Source: Mycoplana dimorpha
Lineage (GTDB): Bacteria; Pseudomonadota; Alphaproteobacteria; Rhizobiales; Rhizobiaceae
DNA: 64,000 nt
NCBI RefSeq assembly: GCF_003046475.1
Contig: NZ_PZZZ01000008.1
Coordinates: 124,001 to 188,000 of the forward strand
Reading direction: 5' to 3'
Under the pieces are notes generated by a model. It made no database searches. It saw only the letters and a program-made list of their open reading frames with translations, and was not told the DNA's origin. Positions 39,662 through 53,971 of the stretch are shown here, piece by piece. A program made the translations under genes and the position numbers. The first letter of the stretch is position 1. The number at the start of each line of letters is the position of its first letter.

Positions 39662-40369
39662 TCAGGCGGCGCGCAGACGGCCGCGCAGAACGGTCGCGGA
39701 TGCCCGGGGGGCCGGGACGCGGCGCATGACCTCCTCGGCCAGTAGGCGCGCGTTCTCGCGTGCCTTGTCGAGATTGGACACCCGCGCCGGGTCCATCGTC
39801 CTCAGCGTGCCGCCGCAGTCGAAAATGTCGCGGAATGCAGCCCGCTCGGCGATTGCGGTGTCGAGCACCGCCACGCCACGCTCGGCGAGTAGCTGCTTGA
39901 TGGCGGCCATGGCGCGGGTGGTGACGACCGCACTCATCCGCGTCAGCACCACCGAATGCTCGATGCGGACGCCCGCCCGCTTGTCGAGCTGGTGCAGCAG
40001 TTCAAGAATCTGCGCTCCGCCGTGGGCATCCATCGCACAGCCCTGGATCGGGATCAGGACATGGTCGGAAAGGCCGATCGCCGTCGCGACCATTGCGTCG
40101 CGTGCGCCAGCAAGATCGACCACGAAATAGTCGGTGGTGTCGCGGTTCTCGCGGATGTGTGACTGCAGCGACCCCATCGACACCTCGGAGATCACCGTCA
40201 GGTTCGGCCGCGTGCCGGTAAGGTCGTGCCAGCGGGTGATCCAGCGCTGCGGGTCTGCGTCGAGAATGGTGACGCGATACCCTTGGGCGGCCAGCTCGGT
40301 GGCAAGGATCAGGGCGGCAGTGGTCTTGCCTGCCCCGCCCTTGGCGTTGGCGAACGTGATGACCGGCAT
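39662..40369 (-). CDS. ParA/MinD-superfamily ATPase
   Basis: The protein has 235 aa. The deviant Walker A KGGAGKTT lies at residues 10-17, and DADPQRWITRW follows at the switch I position. VVDLAGA marks Walker B. Size and the DADPQ-RWxxxW pattern resemble orphan ParA proteins such as VirC1 more than chromosomal ParA with a ParB partner; no parB gene is adjacent. Such ATPases position cargo on membrane or nucleoid. Placement next to a soluble chemoreceptor recalls ParC-type chemoreceptor positioning, but the two genes are 312 bp apart, so this is speculative. Confidence 0.85.
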   Translation of the reverse strand: MPVITFANAKGGAGKTTAALILATELAAQGYRVTILDADPQRWITRWHDLTGTRPNLTVISEVSMGSLQSHIRENRDTTDYFVVDLAGARDAMVATAIGLSDHVLIPIQGCAMDAHGGAQILELLHQLDKRAGVRIEHSVVLTRMSAVVTTRAMAAIKQLLAERGVAVLDTAIAERAAFRDIFDCGGTLRTMDPARVSNLDKARENARLLAEEVMRRVPAPRASATVLRGRLRAA

Positions 40370-40611: not shown

Positions 40612-40638
40612 GAAGCCCGGCATGGTCTGCCGGGCTTC
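40612..40638 (-). terminator. Terminator of the leftward amine/alcohol operon
   Basis: GAAGCCCGGCA (40612-40622) pairs perfectly with TGCCGGGCTTC (40628-40638), loop 5. Read leftward it is followed by TTCGTTTC. It starts 29 bp after the stop of the iron alcohol dehydrogenase, the last gene of the operon. The interval 40370-40611 holds no gene I can support. Confidence 0.8.
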
Positions 40639-40666
40639 AGAATGCATGCGTCTGTGCGTACCTCGC

Positions 40667-41812
40667 TCAGATGCACTCGGCAAAGAGCCGCTTGGCCGCC
40701 TCAAGGGTCAGTTCGACCGGGTTTCCGCCGGCCGTCGGGTCGACGATCGCCATTTCGCTCATCTCGTCGATCCGGTCCGTGCCGACCCCGAGTGCCGACA
40801 GCTTGTCCGGCACGCCGAGTTCGGAGCGAAGCTGCAGCACGTAGTCGTAGAAGCCGTCGAAGCCGCCGGCCATGCCGAGATAGGCCGCCGCCGCGGCGAT
40901 CCTGCCTTCGATGGCCGGGCGGTTGAAGCGCAGCACCGGCGGCATAACCACCGCATTGGTCATGCCGTGGTGCGTGTTGTAGATGGCGCCGACCGGATGC
41001 GACAGCGAGTGGATCGCCCCAAGCCCCTTCTGGAAGGCGACCGCGCCCATGGCGGCGGCCGACATCATGTTGGCGCGGGCCTCGATGTCGGTGCCGTCCC
41101 TGTAGGCGCGCGGCAGGAATTCCTTCACCAGCCGCATCCCTTCCAGCGCGATCCCCTGGCTCATCGGGTGATAGAACGGCGAGCAGTAGGCCTCCAGGCA
41201 GTGGGCGAAGGCATCCATGCCGGTACCGGCGGTGATGACCCTCGGCATGCCGACCGTCAGTTCCGGATCGCAGATCGTCACCGAGGGCAGGAACTTCGGA
41301 TGGAAGATCACCTTCTTGGTGTGGGTCTCAGAGTTGGTGATGACCGAGGCGCGGCCGACTTCCGAGCCGGTGCCGGCCGTCGTCGGCACGGCGACGATCG
41401 GGGCGATGCCGTCGGAGTTGGCGCGCGTCCACCAGTCGCCGATGTCCTCGAAGTCCCAGACGGGACGCGTCTGGCCGGCCATGAAGGCGACCGCCTTGCC
41501 GAGATCGAGGCCGGAGCCGCCACCGAAGGCGACGACGCCGTCATGGCCGCCGTCCCTGAAGGCCTTGACGCCGGCTTCGAGGTTCTTGTCGTTCGGGTTC
41601 GGATCGACTTCGGCAAAGATCGCCCGGCCCAGGCCGGCGGCTTCCATGATGTCGAGTGCGTTCTGGGTGATCGCCATCGGCGCGAGGCCGCGGTCGGTGA
41701 CCAGCAGCGGCTTCTTCATGCCGACCGCCGTGCAGTGGTCGGCAAGTTCACTGATGCGCCCTGCCCCGAACTTGATGGCGGTTGGGTAGCTCCAGTTGGC
41801 GGTGATGCTCAT
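40667..41812 (-). CDS. Iron-containing alcohol dehydrogenase
   Basis: Group III NAD-dependent alcohol dehydrogenase of 381 aa. The dinucleotide loop FGGGSGLDLGKA lies near residues 95-106, VPTTAGTGSE marks the family, and the metal-ligand region includes GTGMDAFAHCLEAY and HSLSHPVGAIYNTHHG. It is the last gene of the operon and overlaps the aldehyde dehydrogenase stop/start by 4 bp. Together they could oxidise an alcohol to the aldehyde and then to the acid. The long open frame upstream is not needed: the family N-terminus starts at 41812. Confidence 0.93.
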   Translation of the reverse strand: MSITANWSYPTAIKFGAGRISELADHCTAVGMKKPLLVTDRGLAPMAITQNALDIMEAAGLGRAIFAEVDPNPNDKNLEAGVKAFRDGGHDGVVAFGGGSGLDLGKAVAFMAGQTRPVWDFEDIGDWWTRANSDGIAPIVAVPTTAGTGSEVGRASVITNSETHTKKVIFHPKFLPSVTICDPELTVGMPRVITAGTGMDAFAHCLEAYCSPFYHPMSQGIALEGMRLVKEFLPRAYRDGTDIEARANMMSAAAMGAVAFQKGLGAIHSLSHPVGAIYNTHHGMTNAVVMPPVLRFNRPAIEGRIAAAAAYLGMAGGFDGFYDYVLQLRSELGVPDKLSALGVGTDRIDEMSEMAIVDPTAGGNPVELTLEAAKRLFAECI

Positions 41813-43194
41813 GCGAGTGCTTTCCTGAGGTGGTAGGACTTCGGACGGGTGAGATTGTGGAAGCCGATGACCGACAGCGAGCCGCCGCGGCCGGTTTCCT
41901 TGACGCCGGTCCAGCAGAGCGCCGGGTCGAGATAGTCGGCGCGATTCATGAACACCGTGCCGGTCTCGAGATCGCGGCCGAGCCGGGCGGCACGCTCGGC
42001 ATCCTTCGTCCAGAGCGAAACCGTCAGGCCGTACTGGCAATCGTTCATCAGTTCGAGCGCTTCGGCGTCGTTCCTGACCTTCATGATGCCGACGGCCGGG
42101 CCGAAGGTCTCTTCCTTCATGAAGGGCATCGAGTGGTCGACGTTCACCAGCACCTGCGGGGCGAGATAGGCACCGCCATCGTCCTGCGGGAACAGCTTTG
42201 GATCGACCAGCGCCTTCGCACCGCGCGAAACGGCATCGGCCACCTGCTCGCGCACCACCGCGGCGAAACGCTTGTTCGCCATCGGTCCGAGCGTCGTTTC
42301 CGGGTCGAGCGGATTGCCGAGCTTGTAGTTCGACACCCAGGCGACCGATTTCTCGACGAAGGCGTCATAGAGCGACTCATGGACGTAGATGCGCTCGATA
42401 CCGCAGCAGCACTGGCCGGAGTTGTAGGTGGCGCCGTCCATCAGCGTATCGACGGCAGCGTCGAGGTCGGCGTCTTCCATGACATAGCCGGGGTCCTTGC
42501 CGCCGAGCTCGAGGCCGATCGGCGTGAAGGTGCCGGCAGCGGCCCGTTCGATCGAGCGGCCGCCCTCGACCGAGCCGGTGAAGTTAACGAAGTCGAAGCT
42601 CTTCGCCGCGATCAGCGCCGAGGTGGTGTCGTGGTCAAGGAAGATGTTCTGGAACACATCGTCCGGCACGCCGGCCTCGACGAAGGCCCGCACCAGCCGC
42701 TCCCCGACGAGCAGGGTCTGGGCCGCGTGCTTGATGATGACGGTGTTGCCGGCCATCAGCGCCGGCGCCACCGTATTGATCGCGGTCATGTAAGGGTAAT
42801 TCCACGGCGCGATGACGAAGACAACGCCGTGCGGCTCGCGCTCGATGCGGCGCTCGAAACTGCTGCTGTTCTCGATCACGATCGGAGCGAGCGAGGAACC
42901 GGCAATTTCGGCGACGTAATTCGAACGCTCGTTGAAGCCCTTGAACTCGCCGCCATAGCGCACCGGACGGCCCATCTGCCAGGCGAGCTCCGGCACCACC
43001 TCGTCCTTCATCTCGTTGAGGCGGGCAACGCCCTTCAGCACGAGCTGGATACGATGCTCCAGCGGCCGCTTCGCCCAGGTTTTCTGCGCCTTGCGGGCTC
43101 GTGCGACAACCTGTTTCGCCGCCTCCAGCGGCATCGCCTCGCGCTCGGCATAGACCGAGCCGTCGACGGGGGAAATGCATTTGATCATGGTCAT
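41809..43194 (-). CDS. NAD(P)-dependent aldehyde dehydrogenase
   Basis: The protein has 461 aa. The cofactor and catalytic landmarks are present: APWNYPY (128-135), FTGSVEGG (206-212), the general base E229 in LELGGKDP, and the nucleophile in GQCCCGIER. C263 matches the canonical GQxC position, with two further cysteines beside it. The late EETFGP motif is intact. Coupled to the alcohol dehydrogenase by an ATGA overlap. In this operon it would oxidise the aldehyde derived from a gamma-glutamylated or free amino alcohol. Confidence 0.93.
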   Translation of the reverse strand: MTMIKCISPVDGSVYAEREAMPLEAAKQVVARARKAQKTWAKRPLEHRIQLVLKGVARLNEMKDEVVPELAWQMGRPVRYGGEFKGFNERSNYVAEIAGSSLAPIVIENSSSFERRIEREPHGVVFVIAPWNYPYMTAINTVAPALMAGNTVIIKHAAQTLLVGERLVRAFVEAGVPDDVFQNIFLDHDTTSALIAAKSFDFVNFTGSVEGGRSIERAAAGTFTPIGLELGGKDPGYVMEDADLDAAVDTLMDGATYNSGQCCCGIERIYVHESLYDAFVEKSVAWVSNYKLGNPLDPETTLGPMANKRFAAVVREQVADAVSRGAKALVDPKLFPQDDGGAYLAPQVLVNVDHSMPFMKEETFGPAVGIMKVRNDAEALELMNDCQYGLTVSLWTKDAERAARLGRDLETGTVFMNRADYLDPALCWTGVKETGRGGSLSVIGFHNLTRPKSYHLRKALA

Positions 43195-43264
43195 GATCGT
43201 CTTCCTGTCAGTTGCATCTACAATTCAGTCGGCGCCTTCGCGCCCATTCACCTTCCGCAGCCAA

Positions 43265-43296
43265 ATGCCCTCCCGCCGTTTTCGGAGAGAGGGCAT
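43265..43296 (-). other. Intercistronic hairpin between ligase and aldehyde dehydrogenase genes
   Basis: ATGCCCTC (43265-43272) and GAGGGCAT (43289-43296) form an 8-bp stem on the leftward transcript, followed by TTTGG. It may partly terminate transcription or protect the mRNA end, reducing dehydrogenase output relative to the upstream genes. Confidence 0.45.
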
Positions 43297-43319
43297 GGAC
43301 AAACAGCCTTCTGTAAATC

Positions 43320-44690
43320 CTAGGCCCGCTCGAAGCCGCGCGCCACCTCCCAGTCGGTCACGCGCCGGTCGTACTCCTCCTGCTCCCACTGCGCGGCCCG
43401 GACGTAATGATCGACGACGTCCTCGCCGAACGCTTCGCGCAGCATCGTCGATGTCGCCATGAACTCGGTCGCCTCGCGCAGCGTCTTCGGAATCTCGCGG
43501 ACGTTCTTGCCGCCGTAGGCGTCGCCGACAAACGGCGCTTCCAGCTCCAGCTTGCCTTCGATTCCGGCGATGCCCGCGGCTATCTGCGCGGCCATGGCGA
43601 GATAGGGGTTGAGGTCCGATCCGCCGACGCGGCATTCGATCCGGATGCCCTTCGTGGCCTCGCCACAAAGGCGATAGCCGGCCGTGCGGTTGTCCTTGCT
43701 CCAGACGGCCTTGGTCGGCGCGAAGGTGCCGGCCATGAAGCGCTTGTAGGAGTTGATGTAGGGCGCCAGGAAATAGGTGACCTCGCTGGCGTGGTTGAGA
43801 AGCCCGGCGACGTAGCAGCGCATCAGGTCGGACATGCCGTACTTGGCTTCCGGATCGTAGAACTTCGGGGTCTTGCCGTCGGCGCTCCAAAGCGACTGGT
43901 GGATGTGCGAGGAGGAACCGGCCGAGCCGTAGTTCCACTTGGCAAGGAAGGTGACGGCCTTGCCGCGCTGCCAGGCGATCTCCTTGCAGGCGTTCTTGAT
44001 GAGGGCGTGACGGTCGGCCATGGTCAGCGCGTCGGCATAGCGGACGTTGATTTCCTCCTGGCCGGGCGAAGCCTCGCCCTTGGAGTTCTCGACCGGGATG
44101 CCCGCACCTTGCAGCCCGTTGCGCAGCGCCCGCATCACATCCTCTTCCTTGGTGGTCTGGAAGATGTGGTAGTCCTCGTTGTAGCCGCTGACGGGCCGCA
44201 AGTCCCGGAAGCCGCTCTCGCGGGCATCGTCGTAGGTCTGATCGAACAGGTAGAACTCCAGTTCGGTCGCCATGTAGGCCTTCAGCCCCATCGCCTCCAG
44301 CCGCTTGACCTGGCGCTTCAGGATCGCGCGCGGCGAATGCGGCACCTCCTTGTGCGTGTGATGGTCGAGCACGTCGCAGAGGACCATCGCCGTGCCCTCC
44401 AGCCACGGGATTCGACGCAGCGTCGAGAGGTCCGGCTTCATCGTATAGTCGCCGTAACCCGCCTCCCAGCTGGTGGCGCGATAGCCCGGGACCGTCTCCA
44501 TCTCCATGTCGGTGGCCAGCAGGTAGTTGCAGCTGTGCGTTTCCTCGTAGGCCCCATCCACGAAGTACTGTGCGTGGAACCGCTTGCCCATCAGGCGCCC
44601 CTGCATGTCGACGAAACATACGAGAACGGTGTCGATGCGGCCCTCGGCCGTATCCTTCTTCAACTCATCAAAACTATAGGTCACGGCCAT
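43320..44690 (-). CDS. Glutamine-synthetase-family ligase, probable gamma-glutamylamide synthetase
   Basis: The protein has 456 aa from the ATG at 44690; a start at 44717 is also open. It belongs to the GlnT/PuuA/IpuC branch rather than biosynthetic GlnA. The ATP/metal landmarks ATELEFYLFD, the glutamate-binding GSAGSSSHIHQSLW and the late RIECRVGGSDLNPYLAMAA are present, but the GlnA adenylylation loop is absent. Such enzymes join glutamate to amines (putrescine, ethanolamine, isopropylamine, alaninol). Position between a TRAP importer and two dehydrogenases suggests it activates the imported substrate. Confidence 0.85.
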   Translation of the reverse strand: MAVTYSFDELKKDTAEGRIDTVLVCFVDMQGRLMGKRFHAQYFVDGAYEETHSCNYLLATDMEMETVPGYRATSWEAGYGDYTMKPDLSTLRRIPWLEGTAMVLCDVLDHHTHKEVPHSPRAILKRQVKRLEAMGLKAYMATELEFYLFDQTYDDARESGFRDLRPVSGYNEDYHIFQTTKEEDVMRALRNGLQGAGIPVENSKGEASPGQEEINVRYADALTMADRHALIKNACKEIAWQRGKAVTFLAKWNYGSAGSSSHIHQSLWSADGKTPKFYDPEAKYGMSDLMRCYVAGLLNHASEVTYFLAPYINSYKRFMAGTFAPTKAVWSKDNRTAGYRLCGEATKGIRIECRVGGSDLNPYLAMAAQIAAGIAGIEGKLELEAPFVGDAYGGKNVREIPKTLREATEFMATSTMLREAFGEDVVDHYVRAAQWEQEEYDRRVTDWEVARGFERA

Positions 44691-44802
44691 CAGGCGGTCC
44701 TCGGATTGTCCTGCCATTCCGAACCGGTCGGTACTGCCCGGCTCGTTCTCCTGGGGGGCCAGCCGCCGAAGCGGCCGGCCTTCGCTTTCAGTCCGGCCGG
44801 GC

Positions 44803-45870
44803 TCAGCCGTAGCGATACGGAGCGCCAGCCTTGCGCATGGTCTCCTGATACTTCTTCAGGATCTCCACCACCTTGGCGTTGCGGGGGCTCTTGGCGGCGA
44901 CCTCGTCCCAGAAGGTAAGCGCCATGTCCTCCACGGTCTTCCACTCCTCTTCGGGAATGGTCGTGAGCTCGAGCTTGCCGCCGGTCGTGCGGTAGTGCGC
45001 CTCACCCCACCAATACCAGTGCTGGCGGTAATAATGGGAGGAATCCATCGCCAGCTTGAAGATCTCCTTCAGATGGTCGGGGACCGCATTCCACTTTTCG
45101 GTGTTGGCGAAGAACGACCCCGACCAGGCGCCGGAGATGTTGTTGGTGAGGTAGTACTTGGTGACCTCCGCCCAGCCGACGCTGTAGGTTTCGGTGGCGC
45201 CGCACCAGGCGATGCCGTCGATCTCGCCGGTCTGCAGGGCGACCTCGATGTCCTCCCAAGGCAGCGTCACCGGAACGACGCCGAGGCGCGAGATGAACTG
45301 GCCGCCGGTCGGGAAGGTGTAGACGCGCAGGCCCTTCAGGTCCTCGAGGCTGCGGATCGGCTTGGTGGTGGCGAAGTTGCACGGGTCCCACGCGCCGGCC
45401 GAAAGCCAGGTCACGCCGGGAACCTCGCCATAGGCCTCCTCCCAGATCTCCTTCAGGCCGTACCAGTTCCACAGAACCGGCACGTCCAGGCTGTAGCGCG
45501 AGGCAAACGGGAAATAGGCGCCGAACACCGAGACGTCGACCGGCGAGGCCATGGAATCGTCGTCGCTCTGCGCCGCATCGATGGTGCCGGCCTGGACGGC
45601 GCGGAACAGTTCGCCCTGCGGCACGAGTTGGTCGGCCGTGTAGAGTTCGATGACCATCTCGCCGTTTGCGGCCTTGTTGAAGGCGTCGATTGCCGGCTTG
45701 ACGACATGGTCGGCAAGGGCCGGACCGGCATAGGTCTGCAGCCGCCACTTGATCGGGCTTTGCGCCTTCACATAGGGCGCGGCGAGCGTCGTCGCGCCGA
45801 CGGCGCCCGCACCGGTCAGGACGGACTTCCGCAGGAATTCACGCTTGTTCATGGTCTTGGCATCAGTCAT
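44803..45870 (-). CDS. TRAP transporter solute-binding protein (DctP family)
   Basis: Periplasmic binding protein of 355 aa. The N-terminus NKREFLRKSVLTGAG resembles a Tat signal but has Lys-Arg in place of Arg-Arg; cleavage is expected after YVKA. The mature protein carries TRAP landmarks such as ELYTADQLVPQGE and GAWDPCNFATTKPIRSLEDLKGLRVY. The start at 45870 is chosen because upstream in-frame codons lack family similarity. It delivers ligand to the DctQM permease encoded just upstream. Ligand unknown; TRAP proteins mostly bind carboxylates, though some take ectoine, taurine or amines. Confidence 0.9.
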   Translation of the reverse strand: MTDAKTMNKREFLRKSVLTGAGAVGATTLAAPYVKAQSPIKWRLQTYAGPALADHVVKPAIDAFNKAANGEMVIELYTADQLVPQGELFRAVQAGTIDAAQSDDDSMASPVDVSVFGAYFPFASRYSLDVPVLWNWYGLKEIWEEAYGEVPGVTWLSAGAWDPCNFATTKPIRSLEDLKGLRVYTFPTGGQFISRLGVVPVTLPWEDIEVALQTGEIDGIAWCGATETYSVGWAEVTKYYLTNNISGAWSGSFFANTEKWNAVPDHLKEIFKLAMDSSHYYRQHWYWWGEAHYRTTGGKLELTTIPEEEWKTVEDMALTFWDEVAAKSPRNAKVVEILKKYQETMRKAGAPYRYG

Positions 45871-45997
45871 TTCAATTCCCCCTATTGAAGTGATTGGATC
45901 AGTTCCGTTGCGGCGGCGGGTCGGCGCGGTCAGCGCCGTCCCCGTCTCCAAGTCGTTGCACGCTTAGCTCCATGGTTCCTCCCCAAGCAGTGAGCGT

Positions 45998-47326
45998 TTA
46001 CCTCTTCCCGGAATAGACCTCCGGCAGCCACATCGCGATGTCCGGAAACACCATGACGATGATCATGCTAAACACCATCAGAAGAAAGAACGGCACGATT
46101 GAACGATAGATGTCGACGATGGTGATCTCGGGCGGCGCCATCGCCCGCATCAGGAACAGGTTGTAGCCGAAGGGCGGCACGATGTAGGCGATCTGGCAGG
46201 TGATGGTGTAGAGGATGCCGAACCAGACCAGGTCGAACCCGAGGATCTTGACCAGCGGAATGTAGAGCGGCGCCACGATGACCAGCATGGCCGTGTCGTC
46301 GAGGAACATGCCGAGGATGATGAACGAGAACAGCATCATCGACAGGACGCCCCAGGGGCTCAATTCCCAGGTGTGCAGCAGGAGGTTCTCGATCGCCTTG
46401 ATCGCGCCGAGCCCGTCATAGACGGCGCTGAAGCACAGGGCGCCCAGGATGATCCAGAGGAACATCGCCGAAACCGCCAGCGTGTTGCGCGTCGTCTTCT
46501 CCACCACGGTGGCGCTCAGTTTTCCGGAGCCCCACGCGGCAAGCAGGGCCAGCAGCGCACCGACCATCGAGGTCTCGACGAGACTGGTCGTGCCGGTGAG
46601 GAACAGTCCCATGATGGTAGCGAACAGGCCGAACGGCAGCAGCCCCTCGCGCAGCAGGACGAGCTTTTCGCGCAAGGTGATGCTGGCGCGCTCCTCCGGA
46701 GGCAGCGCCGGGCCCAATTCCGGCTGCAGGCGGCAGCGGATGTAGATGTAGGCGGTGAAGATGATCGCCATCAGGATGAACGGGCCGATGCCGGCCAGCC
46801 ACAGCTGCAGCACCGGCTGGCGCGCGATCATCGCATAGAGGATGAGCACCACGCTGGGCGGCCCCATGATGCCGAGCGACGACCCGCCCTGGATGACGCC
46901 GGTGATCATCACCTTGTCATAGCCGCGCCGCAGGAGTTCCGGCAGCGCGACCGTCGCGCCGATCGCCATGCCCGCGACCGAGAGGCCGTTGACCATCGAG
47001 ATGACGATCATCAGCCCCATCGTACCGATCGCCAGCCCACCGCGGACCGATCCGAACCAGACATGGAACATCCGGTACAGATTGTTGGCGATGCCGGATT
47101 CCGACAGCATGTAGCCCATGAAGACGAAGAACGGCACGGTGATCAGCGGATACCAGTTGAGCACCTGGAAGGCGGCGTTGAAGGGAAGTTCGAAAGATCC
47201 ATTTCCCCACAGCCAGAGCGCCGCCGCGGCGCCTACCGCGCCGATGACACCGTAGACCCGCTGCCCCGTGCCCATCAGCACGAGCATGGAGGCGAACATG
47301 AAGATGGTGATGAATTCGGAGCTCAT
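45998..47326 (-). CDS. TRAP transporter large permease (DctM family)
   Basis: Inner membrane Na+/H+-driven permease subunit of 442 aa with about 12 hydrophobic segments. The family pattern GxxxxDDTAMLVIVAPLYIPL is seen late (about residues 340-365), and GPPSVVLILYA mid-protein. The start overlaps the DctQ stop by 4 bp. Works with the small subunit and the binding protein of the same operon. Confidence 0.93.
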   Translation of the reverse strand: MSSEFITIFMFASMLVLMGTGQRVYGVIGAVGAAAALWLWGNGSFELPFNAAFQVLNWYPLITVPFFVFMGYMLSESGIANNLYRMFHVWFGSVRGGLAIGTMGLMIVISMVNGLSVAGMAIGATVALPELLRRGYDKVMITGVIQGGSSLGIMGPPSVVLILYAMIARQPVLQLWLAGIGPFILMAIIFTAYIYIRCRLQPELGPALPPEERASITLREKLVLLREGLLPFGLFATIMGLFLTGTTSLVETSMVGALLALLAAWGSGKLSATVVEKTTRNTLAVSAMFLWIILGALCFSAVYDGLGAIKAIENLLLHTWELSPWGVLSMMLFSFIILGMFLDDTAMLVIVAPLYIPLVKILGFDLVWFGILYTITCQIAYIVPPFGYNLFLMRAMAPPEITIVDIYRSIVPFFLLMVFSMIIVMVFPDIAMWLPEVYSGKR

Positions 47327-47835
47327 GCGATCGGCTTTCCGCGCGCTTCAGCGACATCTTTGAAGAACTGGGCAATGGTCTGGAGCAGCATCAGGAAGAT
47401 GCCGAGCGTCATGATCATCTTGATCGGCCACATGACCGGAGCCCAGGCCGTGTAGTTCTTCTGATTGTAGGTGATCGAATATTCGGTGGAGGAAACGCCG
47501 CCCCAGAACAGCACGACCAGATAGAAAATCACGAACAGGATTGTGAATGAATCGGTGATCGCCCGGGTTCTCGGCTTCATCATGCCGTAGAACAGGTCCA
47601 TGCGCACATGGGCGTCGATCTGCATCGAATAGGCGCCGCCGAGCAGGTAGTAGGCCGACAGCATGAACTGCGACATCTCCATCACCCAGTTGACCGGGTA
47701 GCCGAAGGCGACGCGCATCATGGTCGAATAGAGCAGGATCAAGCCCATCGGGAAGATCAGGTACATCGCGAAGATGCCGACCCTGCGGTTAAGTGAGTCA
47801 ACGATACGGACGTAATGCTTGACGAACTCAGGCAT
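47323..47835 (-). CDS. TRAP transporter small permease (DctQ family)
   Basis: Small membrane subunit of 170 aa with four hydrophobic segments; LLGGAYSMQIDAHVRMDLFY matches the DctQ core (consensus GGxxxxxxxHVRVDL). The ATG at 47835 gives the normal family length; ten more codons are open upstream. It couples by ATGA overlap to dctM. It lies 113 bp after the amidohydrolase gene. Confidence 0.92.
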   Translation of the reverse strand: MPEFVKHYVRIVDSLNRRVGIFAMYLIFPMGLILLYSTMMRVAFGYPVNWVMEMSQFMLSAYYLLGGAYSMQIDAHVRMDLFYGMMKPRTRAITDSFTILFVIFYLVVLFWGGVSSTEYSITYNQKNYTAWAPVMWPIKMIMTLGIFLMLLQTIAQFFKDVAEARGKPIA

Positions 47836-47948
47836 CGCGCACAGTCCCATTGATGACGGCCCCACGCGAAGTCAGGCCACCTCGTTCATATTGAAACAAC
47901 GACATCCCTCCCTTTCCTCCCCTCGCGCCGCTGCACCGGCGCATCCGC

Positions 47949-48719
47949 TCAGCGTACCTGCGGCGACGTCAGCCCCTCGACGAGTAGATCGGCAAGGTAG
48001 CCGGCCACGGCACGCTGGCCGGCCTCCTCCCGAACCAGGTCGTTTCGCACCTCGACCATAACATTGGCGATAGCGTTGGCCAGGCCATGCTCCTTCAGCG
48101 TGTGCGTCACGCCGTCCTCCGGCCCGTAGGGCTCGTTGCGGCGGATATCGTAGCCTCCGGGGGTGCGGCCTGCCGCAGCAAGCATGGCGTCGGCGAGCCG
48201 ACTGTCGCTATCGTGCACGATGCCGATCTCGACGGCGCGCGGCTTGCCGAAATAGACCGGCGTGAAAGTATGGATCGTAACGATCACCGGCGCCCGATCC
48301 GCCGCGATCCGGCTTTTCACCAGGCGGGAAAGAGAGTCGCGGAACGGCAGGTAGAGCGCTTCGGTGCGTGCGTCGCGCGCCGCCTGGTCGAGGCCGGCAT
48401 TGCCGGGCACCTCGAAGATCTCGCTCTTCTCCGGCATGGCGGCCGGCGACTCCGGCGGACGGTTGCAATCATAGGCGAGCCGCGAAAAGCGCTGGAAGAC
48501 CAGTGCCGCGTCGAGTTGCAGCGCCATCAGCCGGGCGACGCCGAGCGCGCCCGGATCCCAGGCGATATGGCTCGCCAGAGCCTCGTCGGACAGGCCGAGC
48601 GTGCCGAGCGCCTTGGGAAGCGATCGGGACGCGTGCTCACAGACGAGGATGACCCGTCCCTGCGCAGCAGCATTCTCCAGGGCGACGGGGTCGCCCTCCT
48701 CTCCAGTCAAAATTCCCAC
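47949..48719 (-). CDS. N-formylglutamate amidohydrolase family protein
   Basis: First gene of the seven-gene leftward operon; 256 aa of the FGase fold. CEHAS with H29 carries the probable zinc ligand, SRLAYDCNRPPES and IVTIHTFTP are family motifs, and VEIG with the late GVTHTLKEHG complete the fold. HutG-type members cleave formylglutamate, but no histidine-degradation gene is present. In this operon a more attractive role is release of glutamate from a gamma-glutamyl intermediate; that is inference from context. The ATG lies 36 bp from the nearer RpiR palindrome. Confidence 0.85.
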   Translation of the reverse strand: MGILTGEEGDPVALENAAAQGRVILVCEHASRSLPKALGTLGLSDEALASHIAWDPGALGVARLMALQLDAALVFQRFSRLAYDCNRPPESPAAMPEKSEIFEVPGNAGLDQAARDARTEALYLPFRDSLSRLVKSRIAADRAPVIVTIHTFTPVYFGKPRAVEIGIVHDSDSRLADAMLAAAGRTPGGYDIRRNEPYGPEDGVTHTLKEHGLANAIANVMVEVRNDLVREEAGQRAVAGYLADLLVEGLTSPQVR

Positions 48720-48754
48720 TAGCCTGATCCCCTCGACCGGCCACTATTATTGTC

Positions 48755-48770
48755 TGAAGAGAATTCTTCA
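48755..48770. promoter_or_regulatory. Operator copy 1, TGAAGA-N4-TCTTCA
   Basis: A 16-bp dyad, TGAAGAGAATTCTTCA, with perfect 6-bp arms. It lies 36 bp upstream of the leftward operon. Identical arms occur in copy 2, 43 bp centre to centre (about four helical turns), which fits cooperative or looping binding by the adjacent RpiR-family regulator. Confidence 0.75.
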
Positions 48771-48797
48771 CAGTTTCGCCCCTGTCAAGTGCGCGAA

Positions 48798-48813
48798 TGA
48801 AGAAGCTTCTTCA
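48798..48813. promoter_or_regulatory. Operator copy 2, TGAAGA-N4-TCTTCA
   Basis: TGAAGAAGCTTCTTCA is a perfect 16-bp palindrome with the same arms as copy 1. It ends 9 bp before the candidate -35 box of the RpiR gene. A further inverted repeat, CATTTGA-CT-TCAAATG (48820-48835), overlaps that -35 box. Confidence 0.75.
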
Positions 48814-48822
48814 ATAAACCAT

Positions 48823-48852
48823 TTGACTTCAAATGTGACAGCGATGTTTAAT
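48823..48852 (+). promoter_or_regulatory. Candidate sigma-70 promoter of the RpiR-family gene
   Basis: TTGACT (48823-48828) and TTTAAT (48847-48852) are separated by 18 bp, a good match to the housekeeping consensus, about 40 bp upstream of the TTG start. The -35 box lies within an inverted repeat and directly beside operator copy 2. Confidence 0.5.
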
Positions 48853-48893
48853 TTCGTTCCAGGCCGACAGAGAGCGGCAGACGGGGGAAAAAC

Positions 48894-49772
48894 TTGACGT
48901 CAAGCCAGGCATCCATGACGGTGTCGGACGTGATCAACGCGCATTACGACGCGTTGACGCGCGCCGAAAAACAATTGGCGGCGTCGCTTCTCGACAATTA
49001 TCCCGTCTCCGGGCTCGGCAGCATCACCACGGTGGCCGAGAATGCCGGCGTGTCCACGCCGACGGTCGCCCGCATGGTGCAAAAGCTCGGCTTCCGCGGT
49101 TTTCCCGACTTCCAGGCGCACCTGCACCATGAACTGGAGGCGACGCTCTCCAACCCGATTGCCAAGCATGACCGCTGGGCGGCCAACGCGCCGGGGACGC
49201 ATATCCTCAACCGGTTCGCCGACGCGATCATGGGCAACCTTCGCCACACCCTCTCGCAGGTTGAGATCGAGGATTTCGACGGCGCAGCAGCGCTGATCGC
49301 CGATCGCAAGCGCAACGTCTACGTGGTGGGCGGCCGAATCACCAAGGCGCTGGCCGACTACCTGTTCACGCATCTGCAGGTGATCCGGCCGAACGTCACC
49401 CAGCTTGCCTCCAATCCGAGCGCCTGGCCGCATTACGTCCTCAACATGAAGGCTGGCGATGTCATCGTCATCTTCGACATCCGCCGCTACGAGCAGGAGA
49501 TGGAGACCTTTGCCCGCATCGCCCGCGATCGCGGCGTCGAGATCGTGCTGTTCACCGATCAGTGGGCCTCGCCCATCGCCAAACTGGCTGCCCGCGTATT
49601 CCGGATTCATATCGAGGCACCGTCGGCCTGGGACTCCTCCGTGGTGACGCTTTTCGTCGTGGAGGCGCTGATCGAAGCGGTGCAGAGCGCGAACTGGACC
49701 GAGACCCGGGAGCGGATGAAATCACTGGAGGAACTGTTCGAGGCAAGCCGGCTCTTCCGCAAACCGAAGTGA
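48894..49772 (+). CDS. RpiR/MurR-family transcriptional regulator
   Basis: The protein has 292 aa. An N-terminal HTH_6 domain (about 10-80, with STPTVARMVQKLGF as recognition helix) is followed by a SIS domain (about 115-245), which in this family binds phosphosugars or related effectors. The start is a TTG at 48894 with GGGGGA 6 bp before it; an ATG seven codons later has only a weak site. It is divergent from the TRAP/ligase/dehydrogenase operon and followed by an ABC importer, so it may control either or both. The palindromes in its upstream region are probable operators. Confidence 0.9.
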   Translation: MTSSQASMTVSDVINAHYDALTRAEKQLAASLLDNYPVSGLGSITTVAENAGVSTPTVARMVQKLGFRGFPDFQAHLHHELEATLSNPIAKHDRWAANAPGTHILNRFADAIMGNLRHTLSQVEIEDFDGAAALIADRKRNVYVVGGRITKALADYLFTHLQVIRPNVTQLASNPSAWPHYVLNMKAGDVIVIFDIRRYEQEMETFARIARDRGVEIVLFTDQWASPIAKLAARVFRIHIEAPSAWDSSVVTLFVVEALIEAVQSANWTETRERMKSLEELFEASRLFRKPK

Positions 49773-49813
49773 GATCATCCGAGAACGGAGGCTACGTAAA
49801 AAGCGTTTTATTC

Positions 49814-49831
49814 CTGTCACATGACGTTCAT
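49814..49831 (+). promoter_or_regulatory. PHO box upstream of the ABC importer
   Basis: CTGTCAC-ATGA-CGTTCAT: the first half-site is a consensus PhoB heptamer and the second agrees at 5 of 7 positions, with the correct 4-bp spacer. It ends 55 bp before the ATG of the solute-binding protein. It implies phosphate-starvation control of the importer. Confidence 0.65.
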
Positions 49832-49886
49832 GCCGTAACAGTATCAGCAACACGGAATTGACTGACACACAAGGGAGAACACCGTG

Positions 49887-50993
49887 ATGTCACACACCAG
49901 CCGCCTGCTCAGACTCTCCACCGCCATCCTGATGGCAACGACCGCGGTTGCGGCCGCCGCCGAACCCAGCGCCGAGCTGGTTGAAGCCGCCAAGAAGGAA
50001 GGCAAGCTGACGACCATCGCCCTGCCGCACAGCTGGTGCGGCTACGGCGACGTTATCGCCGGCTTCAAGGCCAAGTATCCGGAGATCACCGTAAACGAAC
50101 TGAACCCGGATGCCGGCTCGGGCGACGAGATCGAGGCGATCAAGGCCAACAAGGGCAACACCGGCGACCAGGCTCCGGACGTAATCGACGTCGGCCTGTC
50201 CTTCGGCCCGTCCTCCAAGGCCGAAGGCCTGATCCAGCCCTACAAGGTCGCGACCTGGGATACGATCCCCGACAGCGCCAAGGACGCCGAAGGCTACTGG
50301 TACGGCGACTACTACGGCGTTCTCTCCTTCGTGGTGAACACCGACATCGTCAAGGAACTGCCAAAGGACTGGGCCGACCTGACCAAGTCCGACTACGCGA
50401 ACTCCGTGGCACTCGCCGGTGACCCGCGCACCTCGAACCAGGCCGTCCAGGCCGCCTACGCCGCCGGCCTCGCCAAGGGCGAGACCGACGCCGCCAAGGC
50501 CGGCGAAGCGGGCCTCGCCCATTTTGCCGAAATCAACAAGGCCGGCAACTTTGTTCCGGTCATCGGCAAGTCCGCCTCGCTCGCCCAGGGCTCGACCCCG
50601 ATCGTGATCGCCTGGGACTACAACGGCCTCGCCTGGCGCGACACCCTCGCCGGCAACCCGCCGCTCGAGGTCGTCGTTCCCGAATCGGGCGTCGTCGCCG
50701 GCGTCTACGTGCAGGCGATCTCGGCCTTCGCGCCGCATCCGAACGCCGCCAAGCTGTGGATGGAGTACCTCTATTCGGACGAAGGCCAGCTTGGCTACCT
50801 GAAGGGCTACTGCCACCCGATCCGCTTCAACGACCTGGTCAAGAACGGCAAGGTTCCGCAGGAGATGCTCGACAAGCTGCCGCCGGCAGCAGCCTATGAA
50901 AAGGCCGTCTTCCCGACGCTCGACGAGCAGGCCGCCGGCAAGGCCGTGATCAGCGGCAAGTGGGACAGCGTCGTCGGCGCCAACGTGCAGTAA
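49887..50993 (+). CDS. ABC importer solute-binding protein (family 1, AfuA/PotD/PhnS-like)
   Basis: Periplasmic binding protein of 368 aa. A signal peptide ends near residue 25 (AAA-AEP). The mature part begins with KKEGKLTTIALPHSW, typical of the iron/polyamine/phosphonate/hexose-phosphate binding cluster, and later has PDVIDVG and GYWYGDYYG. The ATG at 49887 fits GGGAGAA best; a GTG lies one codon earlier. The PHO box upstream argues for a phosphorus-containing ligand such as a phosphonate or sugar phosphate rather than iron. A strong terminator separates it from its permease genes. Confidence 0.88.
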   Translation: MSHTSRLLRLSTAILMATTAVAAAAEPSAELVEAAKKEGKLTTIALPHSWCGYGDVIAGFKAKYPEITVNELNPDAGSGDEIEAIKANKGNTGDQAPDVIDVGLSFGPSSKAEGLIQPYKVATWDTIPDSAKDAEGYWYGDYYGVLSFVVNTDIVKELPKDWADLTKSDYANSVALAGDPRTSNQAVQAAYAAGLAKGETDAAKAGEAGLAHFAEINKAGNFVPVIGKSASLAQGSTPIVIAWDYNGLAWRDTLAGNPPLEVVVPESGVVAGVYVQAISAFAPHPNAAKLWMEYLYSDEGQLGYLKGYCHPIRFNDLVKNGKVPQEMLDKLPPAAAYEKAVFPTLDEQAAGKAVISGKWDSVVGANVQ

Positions 50994-51008
50994 AGCGGCA
51001 ACACTGCC

Positions 51009-51042
51009 GGCCCTCCCGCCTGCGCGGGAGGGCCTTTTTTTC
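51009..51042 (+). terminator. Strong intrinsic terminator inside the ABC operon
   Basis: GGCCCTCCCGC (51009-51019) pairs perfectly with GCGGGAGGGCC (51024-51034), loop 4, followed by eight T. It lies 15 bp after the binding-protein stop. Partial readthrough would give much more binding protein than membrane components, the usual ratio for ABC importers. Confidence 0.92.
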
Positions 51043-51127
51043 GGCAGGGCGCGGAGGCGGATTGCGCCCGCCGCATTTCTGTCTAAGTTCGTATCTTCTC
51101 ACTTTTTGTCGGACCGATCGCAGACTC

Positions 51128-51997
51128 ATGAAACGTACCGCGTTGATAGACCGTCGCACCGTCGTAGATTGGCTCGGCATCGCGCCGTTCATGCTGTTTG
51201 CGCTGCTGTTCCTGATCCTGCCGACGCTCTATCTGGTGACCGGCGCTTTCCTGACGCCGGACGGCACTTTCACGTTCAAGAACATTGCCGACCTGTTCTC
51301 GCCGAGCATCCTCGCCGCCTACTGGATCAGCATCAAGGTTTCGCTCGCCTCGTCGCTCGGCGGCGCGGTGATCGGCTTCTTCCTCGCCTGGGCGATCGTC
51401 ATGGGGGGCCTGCCGCGCGTCTTCCGCTCCGGCCTCCTCACCTTTTCGGGCGTCGCCTCCAATTTCGCCGGTGTCCCGCTCGCCTTCGCGTTCATCGCCA
51501 CCCTTGGCCGGACCGGCCTCGTCACGGTGCTGCTCCGCGACCTGATCGGTTTCAATCTCTATTCGACCGGCTTCAACCTGCTGTCGTTCCTCGGCCTGAC
51601 GATCACCTACATGTTCTTCCAGATCCCGCTGATGGTGCTGATCCTGACGCCGGCGCTCGACGGCATGAAGCGGGAGTGGCGCGAGGCCTCGGAAATCCTC
51701 GGCGCCTCCACCTGGCAGTACTGGCGGATGATCGCGCTGCCGATCCTGTGGCCGAGCCTACTCGGCACGACCCTGCTGCTCTTCGCCAACGCCTTCGGCG
51801 CCGTCGCCACCGCCTACGCGCTGACCGGCTCGTCGCTGAACATCGTGCCGATCCTGCTCTTTGCGCAGATCCGCGGCGACGTGCTGCACAACCCCAATCT
51901 CGGCTATGCGCTGGCGCTCGGCATGATCGTGATCACCGGGCTGTCCAACGTTCTCTATATCTGGCTGCGCTCGCGCGCCGAACGGTGGCAGAAATGA
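51128..51997 (+). CDS. ABC importer permease subunit 1
   Basis: Inner membrane permease of 289 aa with six hydrophobic segments. The BPD_transp_1 EAA loop reads EASEILGASTWQYWRMIALPILWPS. It starts at the ATG at 51128; the longer open frame runs back through the terminator. Overlaps the second permease gene by 4 bp. Functions with the second permease and the ATPase to import the ligand of the upstream binding protein. Confidence 0.92.
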   Translation: MKRTALIDRRTVVDWLGIAPFMLFALLFLILPTLYLVTGAFLTPDGTFTFKNIADLFSPSILAAYWISIKVSLASSLGGAVIGFFLAWAIVMGGLPRVFRSGLLTFSGVASNFAGVPLAFAFIATLGRTGLVTVLLRDLIGFNLYSTGFNLLSFLGLTITYMFFQIPLMVLILTPALDGMKREWREASEILGASTWQYWRMIALPILWPSLLGTTLLLFANAFGAVATAYALTGSSLNIVPILLFAQIRGDVLHNPNLGYALALGMIVITGLSNVLYIWLRSRAERWQK

Positions 51998-52782
51998 AGA
52001 CGACCCGCCTCCTCGCCTGGCTCGCGATCGCCATCGGCGCCATCTACTTCATCGTGCCGCTGATCGGCACGTTCGAGTTCTCGCTGCGCATGCGCCGCGG
52101 CGAGTATTCCTTCGACGCCTACCGCTCGGTCTTCACCGACATGCAATTCCGCGCCACCTTCGGCTTCTCCATGCTGATGGCGCTGTTCACCATCGTCTTC
52201 GGCATGCTGCTGGTGGTGCCGACCGCCTACTGGGTGCGCCTGCGCCTGCCGCAACTGCGCCCGGTGGTCGAGTTCATCACGCTCCTGCCGCTGGTGATTC
52301 CGGCGATCGTCATCGTCTTCGGCTACCTGCGGCTCTACAACTCCTCCTCGTTCCTGCCGCTGACCAACTCGACCACCGGCACCAACATGCTGCTGGTATT
52401 CTCCTACATGACGCTGTCGCTTCCCTACATGTATCGAGCCGTCGACACCGCCATGCGGATGATCGACGTCGCCACGCTGACGGAGGCGGCCGAGAGCCTC
52501 GGCGCCAAGTGGCCGACGATCCTGTTCCGCTGCATCTTCCCGAACGTGATGAGCGGGGTGCTGTCCGGCGCCTTCATCACCTTTGCGATCGTCATGGGCG
52601 AGTTCACGATGGCGTCGCTGCTGAACCGGCCCGCTTTCGGTCCCTACCTGCAGCTGGTCGGCGCCAACAAGGCCTATGAGCCTTCGGCGCTGGCGATCAT
52701 CGCGTTTGCGATCACCTGGCTCAGCATGGGCCTGCTGCAACTCGTTTCCCGCTTCCACAAAACCGCGCCCGTGAAGGCCTGA
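51994..52782 (+). CDS. ABC importer permease subunit 2
   Basis: Inner membrane permease of 262 aa with six hydrophobic segments and the EAA loop EAAESLGAKWPTILFRCIFPNVMSG. The start at 51994 overlaps the first permease stop (ATGA). The frame is also open upstream in the alternate frame of the first permease gene, but that part is not permease-like. Pairs with permease 1 as a heterodimer. Confidence 0.92.
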   Translation: MKTTRLLAWLAIAIGAIYFIVPLIGTFEFSLRMRRGEYSFDAYRSVFTDMQFRATFGFSMLMALFTIVFGMLLVVPTAYWVRLRLPQLRPVVEFITLLPLVIPAIVIVFGYLRLYNSSSFLPLTNSTTGTNMLLVFSYMTLSLPYMYRAVDTAMRMIDVATLTEAAESLGAKWPTILFRCIFPNVMSGVLSGAFITFAIVMGEFTMASLLNRPAFGPYLQLVGANKAYEPSALAIIAFAITWLSMGLLQLVSRFHKTAPVKA

Positions 52783-52795
52783 GGACTTAATCCGC

Positions 52796-53857
52796 ATGAC
52801 GTTTCTTTCGCTCAGCCATCTCCAGAAGTCCTTCGGGCCGGTGCAGGTCGTCAACGACTTCAACATGGACATCGAGAAGGGCGAGTTCGTCTCCTTCCTA
52901 GGGCCCTCCGGCTGCGGCAAGACGACGGTGCTCAGGATGATCGCCGGCTTCGAGACGCCGAGCGGCGGCACGATCACCGTCGCCGGCAAGAACCAGGCCG
53001 GCCTGAAGCCGAACCAGCGCAACATCGGCATGGTTTTCCAGGCCTATGCGCTGTTTCCGAACATGAACGTCTTCGACAACGTCGCCTTCGGACTCAAGGT
53101 CGCCGGCCGGCCGCAGCAGGAGATCGCGTCGCGCGTCAAGGAGATGCTCGGTCTGATCAAGCTGGAGCACCTTGCGGACCGCTTTCCCTACCAGCTTTCC
53201 GGCGGCCAGCAGCAGCGCGTGGCGCTCGCCCGCGCGCTGGCGCCGAAGCCGCAGGTTCTGCTCCTCGACGAGCCGCTGTCGGCGCTCGACGCCAAGATCC
53301 GCGTGTCGCTGCGCGAGGAAATCCGCATGATCCAGCAGCAGCTCGGCATCACCACCGTCTTCGTCACGCACGACCAGGAGGAGGCGCTGTCGATCTCCGA
53401 CCGGATCGTGGTGATGAACGCCGGCTGCGCCGACCAGATCGGCACGCCGGCGGAAATCTACAACCGCCCCGCCACCCGCTTCGTCGCCTCCTTCGTCGGC
53501 ACGCTGAACCTGATCGAGGCGAAGGTGATCGACCCGGCCGCGAACCGCGTCTCGATCGGCGACCAGGGCGTGACGCTCCGCGAGCCGGTCGGCCCGGTCA
53601 AACCTGGCGACACGATCTCGCTGGCCCTGCGCCCTGAGGCCGGCTCGATCGCCGAGGGCGCCAAGGGCGACACGGCCCTGACCGGCGAGGTGATCTCAAG
53701 CAACTTCCTGGGCTCCGTGGTGCGCACCCGCATGCGGGTCGGCCCGAGCGTCATCTCCTTCGACATGTTCAACAACCCCGGCCTCGTGCCGCCCGCCGCC
53801 GGCGATACCGTGACCCTGCGCTTCACCGCAACCGACCTGCTGGTCATCCGGGATTGA
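52796..53857 (+). CDS. ABC importer ATP-binding protein with TOBE domain
   Basis: ATPase of 353 aa in the PotA/FbpC group. Walker A GPSGCGKTT (about 38-46), Q-loop FQAYALFPNM, signature LSGGQQQRVALARAL and Walker B VLLLDEPLSALD are all intact, and the switch His is in VFVTHDQEEAL. A TOBE regulatory domain fills about residues 270-350. It starts 13 bp after permease 2 and completes the importer. Confidence 0.94.
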   Translation: MTFLSLSHLQKSFGPVQVVNDFNMDIEKGEFVSFLGPSGCGKTTVLRMIAGFETPSGGTITVAGKNQAGLKPNQRNIGMVFQAYALFPNMNVFDNVAFGLKVAGRPQQEIASRVKEMLGLIKLEHLADRFPYQLSGGQQQRVALARALAPKPQVLLLDEPLSALDAKIRVSLREEIRMIQQQLGITTVFVTHDQEEALSISDRIVVMNAGCADQIGTPAEIYNRPATRFVASFVGTLNLIEAKVIDPAANRVSIGDQGVTLREPVGPVKPGDTISLALRPEAGSIAEGAKGDTALTGEVISSNFLGSVVRTRMRVGPSVISFDMFNNPGLVPPAAGDTVTLRFTATDLLVIRD

Positions 53858-53971
53858 GGCAGACAGCACGCCGTCCCCGATCCGCTGAAACGTTGAACAT
53901 TTTCGTCGCATCTCGTGTGAACTTCGTCGCATGCGCATTTGATCGCCGCGCCGCGCCGCGCTAGTGTCGCT

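Follow-up and report, generated by a model that had tools for sequence, protein, structure and literature searches.

What do the seven genes do that run in one direction on the minus strand of a 64,000-nucleotide stretch of the Mycoplana dimorpha genome (positions 124,001 to 188,000 of contig NZ_PZZZ01000008.1, in full hereafter the window)? The first-pass annotation of this locus took them for an unassigned gamma-glutamylation pathway acting on an amino alcohol or amine. The present analysis indicates that the seven genes and the adjoining RpiR gene are very probably an eto-type ethanolamine catabolic operon, and as such a member of a published pathway. The structure originally described was borne out: the gene families, the shared minus strand and the limits of 40667-48719 agree with the open reading frame coordinates and with a Pfam search, in which each of the seven proteins exceeded the cut-off for its own family. 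The gene coordinates likewise place ATGA overlaps at the two joints named, between the permease genes DctQ and DctM of the tripartite ATP-independent periplasmic (TRAP) transporter (47323-47326), and between the aldehyde dehydrogenase (ALDH) and iron alcohol dehydrogenase (Fe-ADH) genes (41809-41812). The end terminator was also recovered, in the form of a stem of 11 pairs and a run rich in T (40638-40612) downstream of the Fe-ADH gene, the last of the operon. As the terminator scan found four terminator-like sites, no more than the 5.3 in shuffled sequence, it is the position and stem strength of this site that support it.

The first line of evidence is gene content and order. In Phaeobacter sp. 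MED193 (MED193_10021-10056), the published order is RpiR, gamma-glutamylglycine amidohydrolase (GGAH), EtoV, EtoW, EtoX, ethanolamine gamma-glutamylase (ETAGA), aldehyde dehydrogenase (GAADDH) and gamma-glutamylethanolamide dehydrogenase (GETADH); five of the operon's proteins were upregulated during growth on phosphorylethanolamine, and EtoX bound ethanolamine with a Kd of 7.9 uM (PMC10132767). The order GGAH, EtoV, EtoW, EtoX, ETAGA, GAADDH, GETADH is found in M. dimorpha, with an RpiR-type regulator adjoining. This likeness is one of gene kinds and order; in M. dimorpha, the RpiR gene is divergent and is followed by an ATP-binding cassette (ABC) importer.

The second line of evidence is the TRAP substrate-binding protein, DctP. 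A search of the PDB matched it to 4uab and 4xf5, which have identical chain sequences, at E 1e-151, whereas the next solved protein was at 3e-19; identity to 4uab was 68.3% over 319 aligned positions. We take 4xf5 to hold an aminopropanol ligand, which, together with the analogy to IpuC drawn in the first-pass annotation, is what speaks for an operon serving alaninol (2-amino-1-propanol) or another amino alcohol close to ethanolamine, with gamma-glutamylalanine as the product. This is very unlikely, as ethanolamine is the ligand described for the nearest characterised relatives (PMC10132767, PMC12410723), and in some related operons the importer slot holds a permease that resembles the ethanolamine permease family. 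According to a 2025 paper, 4UAB is the complex of Csal_0678 from Chromohalobacter salexigens with ethanolamine, which is held by the platform residue Glu220 and surrounded by aromatic side chains (PMC12410723), and Csal_0678 is without the usual TRAP arginine, according to a 2015 paper (PMC4646407). In the alignment, the M. dimorpha protein has a Tyr at the site of the Arg in the ordinary TRAP protein 4yzz. Judging by chain numbering, Glu220 of 4UAB should be residue 217 of the aligned chain or, less likely, 206; the M. dimorpha equivalents of both candidates (Glu229 and Glu218), as well as Trp224 between them, were kept in 80 of 80 loci. With its 68.3% identity and both candidate glutamates retained, DctP belongs with Csal_0678 and EtoX among the TRAP binding proteins that have an acidic platform residue.

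The third line of evidence is the glutamine synthetase (GS)-like ligase, which scored 691-694 bits against two solved chains, 5dm3 and 11zs, whereas no other solved chain exceeded 188 bits. Its identity to 5dm3, presumably the neighbouring Csal_0679, is 67.3%. With the place of GSI Glu327 set on the alignment by the GSI motif, the ligase was found to have Phe324 there, and therefore lacks the ammonium-site Glu. Across 105 ligase matches in 147 loci (not all independent, as some genomes occur twice), this residue was Phe in 92 and Trp in two of the 94 that were at least 55% identical, and Trp in all 11 of those below 55%. The ethanolamine-specific GlnA4 of Streptomyces also has a Phe (F331) at this place in its published model (PMC6529630). 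It is barely credible that the ligase should be a true glutamine synthetase, its neighbours handling an unrelated substrate and the FGase-family protein being an N-formylglutamate hydrolase. The best NCBIfam matches of the ligase are indeed glutamate-ammonia ligases, but fall well short of the cut-offs (262 bits where 429 are required, and 240 where 470 are), and the FGase-family protein had no NCBIfam match; nevertheless, Phe replaces the ammonium-site Glu, and other genes of both families in the genome score higher. Two of the eight GS-family genes in this 4.59 Mb assembly of 22 contigs match PF00120 with higher scores than the ligase (up to 465 bits), and the top-scoring protein keeps the Glu (three of the seven paralogues of the ligase, L001, L002 and L008, were usable in this alignment). 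Similarly, all four other FGase-family genes score higher against PF05013 (147-257 bits) than that of the operon (134 bits).

Two other characterised systems place the operon further. In C. salexigens, where DctP and the ligase have their 68% and 67% identical counterparts in 4uab and 5dm3, a 2022 review table lists PF00120, PF00465, PF00171 and PF05013, such that the four enzyme families are common to both species (PMC9397018). That pathway is referred to as demonstrated in PMC10132767, which names Agrobacterium tumefaciens C58 alongside and cites Vetting et al. The GlnA4 pathway of Streptomyces coelicolor (SCO1611-1615) is similar in the demonstrated gamma-glutamylation of ethanolamine by GlnA4, in the Phe already described, and in the FGase-family enzyme proposed for the last step, but differs in having a short-chain dehydrogenase, another regulator, and no TRAP genes in the legend of the cluster figure; in this legend the last gene is given as a glutamine amidotransferase, whereas the discussion names a member of the formylglutamate amidohydrolase family (PMC6529630). 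The gamma-glutamylputrescine (Puu) pathway was rejected, the ligase reaching 205.9 bits against the 650-bit cut-off of NF045547 (NCBIfam), and readings based on isopropylamine/alaninol and putrescine were considered and rated low. The PuuA/PuuD putrescine and IpuC isopropylamine/alaninol pathways have in common with the M. dimorpha operon the logic of glutamylating, oxidising and hydrolysing the substrate, but in the M. dimorpha scheme it is the alcohol, not the amine, that is oxidised, and an FGase fold stands in place of the PuuD-type hydrolase. There was also no sign of the Eut pathway, with no match to EutB (PF06751) in the genome; one of 14 control genomes, that of E. coli, was positive.

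The route can thus be set out as a sequence of predicted steps. Ethanolamine would be imported by the TRAP transporter EtoVWX, and joined to glutamate by the GS-like ligase at the expense of ATP, yielding gamma-glutamylethanolamide. This would be oxidised to gamma-glutamyl aldehyde by the Fe-ADH, and then to gamma-glutamylglycine by the ALDH, from which the FGase-family amidohydrolase would release glycine and regenerate glutamate. Control of the operon would fall to the divergent RpiR protein, probably acting at two TGAAGA-N4-TCTTCA palindromes between the RpiR and FGase genes. For M. dimorpha, we infer the enzymatic steps, the division of labour between the dehydrogenases and the regulation by RpiR. 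The chain envisaged in the first-pass annotation, from TRAP import through gamma-glutamylation and the oxidation of alcohol to aldehyde to acid, and on to glutamate release by the FGase-family protein, matches the published scheme, and its substrate can now be named as ethanolamine; what did not survive is its novelty. The pathway it regarded as unassigned has been assigned in print (PMC10132767; PMC9397018), the TRAP importer for an amine has precedents in the 4UAB structure with ethanolamine (PMC12410723) and in the measured Kd of a homologue (PMC10132767), and a deglutamylase of the FGase fold has already been proposed, as a PF05013-family gamma-glutamylglycine amidohydrolase catalysing a predicted step in Chromohalobacter and Streptomyces (PMC9397018, PMC6529630).

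The co-occurrence of the seven genes, which the first-pass annotation had proposed as a check, is evident among relatives. Of 449 loci, 80 named ones were retained, and 42 of these had the full order FGase-DctQ-DctM-DctP-ligase-ALDH-Fe-ADH, with some of the other 38 cut off at contig ends; a divergent RpiR gene accompanied 41 of the 42. The gene set is thus conserved beyond chance. The closest named match to DctP, at 96%, is that of Shinella daejeonensis (L009), the locus of which has all twelve genes examined. A survey of 61 genomes, M. dimorpha included, found DctP (E <= 1e-60) in 30 and the ligase (E <= 1e-140) in 39; DctP lay near the ligase on the same strand in 25 of the 30, and 34 of the 39 genomes with the ligase had an FGase gene no more than 6 kb away from it. 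A contig titled Bacillus subtilis SK6B4 (L017) carries an operon very like those of Pseudochrobactrum, and is probably a mislabelled or contaminated assembly. At eight Parvibaculum-type loci (L026, L028, L029, L041, L043, L050, L051 and L060), the three TRAP genes were recognised near DctP without pathway enzymes; a ligase of 61% identity is located elsewhere in the genome of L026.

The TRAP genes may not always have travelled with their neighbours. In Pseudaminobacter soli (L010), the TRAP genes are 85-94% identical to those of M. dimorpha, whereas the ligase, ALDH and Fe-ADH are 57-66% identical, and FGase 42%. The pattern is reversed in a same-genus relative (G004), with 55-63% for the TRAP genes, 89-92% for the ligase, ALDH and Fe-ADH, and 69% for FGase. 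In another member of the genus (G001), three segments can be aligned with the window, at 40666-43187, 43324-44672 and 47995-53861, whereas the TRAP genes have no aligned counterpart. The simplest reading of these sequences is that the TRAP genes may have been exchanged as a block, an event not found in the literature searched. A search of plasmids with DctP returned 17 records, the best at 68.6% identity.

The place between the FGase and ligase genes is itself variable. In a survey of 14 regions, 12 of which were selected for the lack of a recognised DctP at the locus, this slot contained TRAP genes in two (L154 and L155), an Eat-like permease in three (L142, L146 and L148), another APC permease in four (L143, L147, L149 and L150) and no gene in four (L144, L145, L151 and L153), while L152 had no FGase gene at that place. 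A single representative per permease group was compared with NCBIfam, the others being grouped by 63-88% identity: the L146 and L148 permeases are 88% identical to that of L142, and the L143 permease matches a general amino acid permease model, with a score below the cut-off. In M. dimorpha, the ethanolamine permease of relatives seems to be absent from the genome, as TIGR00908 found just two weak matches below its cut-off. In four of the regions (L146, L150, L154 and L155), the ligase and ALDH genes are separated by an additional stretch of approximately 0.93-0.96 kb, in which one frame of L146 reads, by eye, like a small helix-turn-helix regulator.

Several observations weigh against the assignment of the operon to ethanolamine catabolism. 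Firstly, the C. salexigens pathway is called an in silico prediction in PMC6529630. Secondly, the Eat-like permease of L142, at E 6e-108 and 362 bits, falls short of the 382-bit cut-off of TIGR00908, the ethanolamine permease model. Thirdly, FGase is 34-46% identical to its counterpart in most of the named loci that carry one, and reaches at least 50% in seven (L009, L016, L033, L040, L045, L071 and L087). Fourthly, L016, L033, L040 and L045 keep RpiR, FGase and TRAP genes without an adjoining ligase or dehydrogenases, although the different role this might suggest for FGase is weakened by the presence of a ligase of 64-68% identity elsewhere in each of the four genomes. Finally, close relatives of DctP in Halomonas adjoin a ligase of 32-34% identity, meaning that DctP alone does not fix the pathway.

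The loci of this last kind form a set of ten (L074, L078, L081, L083, L084, L086 and L088, the Halomonas group, with L067, L076 and L072), in which DctP is 73-79% identical to that of M. dimorpha. The GS-like ligase in these is of the other kind (31-34% identity, with Trp at the Glu327 place), ALDH and Fe-ADH genes are nearby, and no FGase gene was detected at the locus. They are possibly a second design of ethanolamine pathway.

The M. dimorpha operon, read as eto-type, has a further potential importer close by, encoded by the ABC genes at 49884-53857. These genes are most like importers of 2-aminoethylphosphonate, sulfate, molybdate and polyamines, and are below every NCBIfam cut-off among the matches listed (for the ATPase, the best 25 of 190). 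They lie beyond RpiR in M. dimorpha and S. daejeonensis. Of 40 complete operons at named loci in which the sequence continues for more than 4.5 kb downstream, 12 have these genes directly after Fe-ADH. The ABC binding protein (E <= 1e-60) occurs in 25 genomes, M. dimorpha included; in 17 of them its gene is no more than 10 kb away from the ligase, and 10 of these 17 were without TRAP at the locus; in the eight unlinked genomes, five had the ligase without ABC genes nearby, and three lacked the ligase at the threshold used. In some Rhizobiales genomes, the linked ABC importer is the only one recognised at the locus. This putative second importer is likely to serve ethanolamine or a headgroup. 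That it should instead be the main ethanolamine route, with the TRAP transporter carrying a variant amine, is highly unlikely: such a role would accord with the frequency of its linkage, including that at loci without TRAP, with three genomes (G003, G005 and G008) in which no gene fits between FGase and ligase and ABC genes are close by, and with a fourth (G014) in which the ligase, ALDH, Fe-ADH and ABC genes are consecutive (annotated from the ligase on), but DctP shares 68% identity with a protein crystallised with ethanolamine, five of the eight unlinked genomes have the ligase without ABC genes nearby, and the ABC binding protein has as its best solved relative 5t1p, a distant match (E 2.5e-56) that does not point to a ligand.

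The balance tips slightly towards a broader proposal, in which the ABC genes would belong to the same regulon and encode a further importer, of ethanolamine or of a headgroup yielding it, the importer slot would be a site of swaps between TRAP, Eat-like permease, other APC permease and nothing, and the M. dimorpha TRAP block would come from a Phyllobacteriaceae-like donor. A linked 2-aminoethylphosphonate-type ABC importer was not found in the titles, abstracts and passages searched, with supplements and most subscription papers outside this coverage.

An RpiR gene is also drawn with the operon in Phaeobacter (PMC10132767). In M. dimorpha, the 174-base gap between FGase and RpiR contains the two TGAAGA-N4-TCTTCA palindromes (48755 and 48798), and the motif occurs nowhere else in the window. 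Of the nine loci, M. dimorpha included, in which RpiR is at least 77% identical, eight retain one palindrome or more, and none was found in the other 52 loci examined, which fits a candidate site specific to this RpiR subgroup. As the motif was defined after being seen in the window, the count in relatives is a check of conservation, and near relatives share sequence anyway. The features of the locus are collected in the table; a ParA-like orphan ATPase (39662-40369, named by reading alone) adjoins the end of the operon, and its portion from 40000 on, which was the part covered by the comparison, aligns at approximately 79-81% in four same-genus relatives.

Table. Features of the eto-type locus of M. 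dimorpha, in window coordinates, with predicted roles.
Feature	Position	Strand	Basis or remark
FGase-family (PF05013) amidohydrolase, predicted gamma-glutamylglycine amidohydrolase (GGAH)	47949..48719	-	GTG start; Pfam; counterpart MED193_10026 in Phaeobacter; sole solved relative at E 0.001 is 2odf, the hypothetical protein Atu2144 (E 1e-97)
TRAP small permease DctQ (EtoV)	47323..47835	-	Pfam PF04290
TRAP large permease DctM (EtoW)	45998..47326	-	Pfam PF06808
TRAP substrate-binding protein DctP (EtoX), predicted ethanolamine binder	44803..45870	-	Pfam PF03480; identity to 4uab
GS-like ligase, predicted ethanolamine gamma-glutamylase (ETAGA)	43320..44690	-	Pfam PF00120; identity to 5dm3; Phe324
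Aldehyde dehydrogenase (ALDH), predicted gamma-glutamyl-aminoacetaldehyde dehydrogenase (GAADDH)	41809..43194	-	Pfam PF00171
Iron alcohol dehydrogenase (Fe-ADH), predicted gamma-glutamylethanolamide dehydrogenase (GETADH)	40667..41812	-	Pfam PF00465/PF25137
Intrinsic terminator, 11-pair stem	40612..40638	-	Terminator scan
Divergent RpiR/SIS regulator	48894..49772	+	Pfam; alternative ATG start 48915
Palindrome TGAAGA-N4-TCTTCA, candidate RpiR operator 1	48755..48770	.	
Palindrome TGAAGA-N4-TCTTCA (perfect 16-mer), candidate RpiR operator 2	48798..48813	.	
ABC substrate-binding protein (SBP_bac_6), operon-linked	49884..50993	+	
ABC permease 1 of linked importer	51128..51997	+	
ABC permease 2 of linked importer	51994..52782	+	
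ABC ATPase of linked importer	52796..53857	+	Nearest NCBIfam model PhnT2 (2-aminoethylphosphonate), score below cut-off

The pathway to which this operon very probably belongs would convert the amine of a phospholipid headgroup to glycine without a free amino aldehyde, and according to PMC10132767 the ethanolamine transporter gene occurs widely in the ocean and is highly expressed there. Only the linked ABC importer and the swapped importer slot merit following; if the proposed role of the former is true, a poorly characterised SBP_bac_6 protein would gain a new assignment. The M. dimorpha locus adds a Rhizobiales copy of the pathway, and with it a testable question: which importer feeds it.

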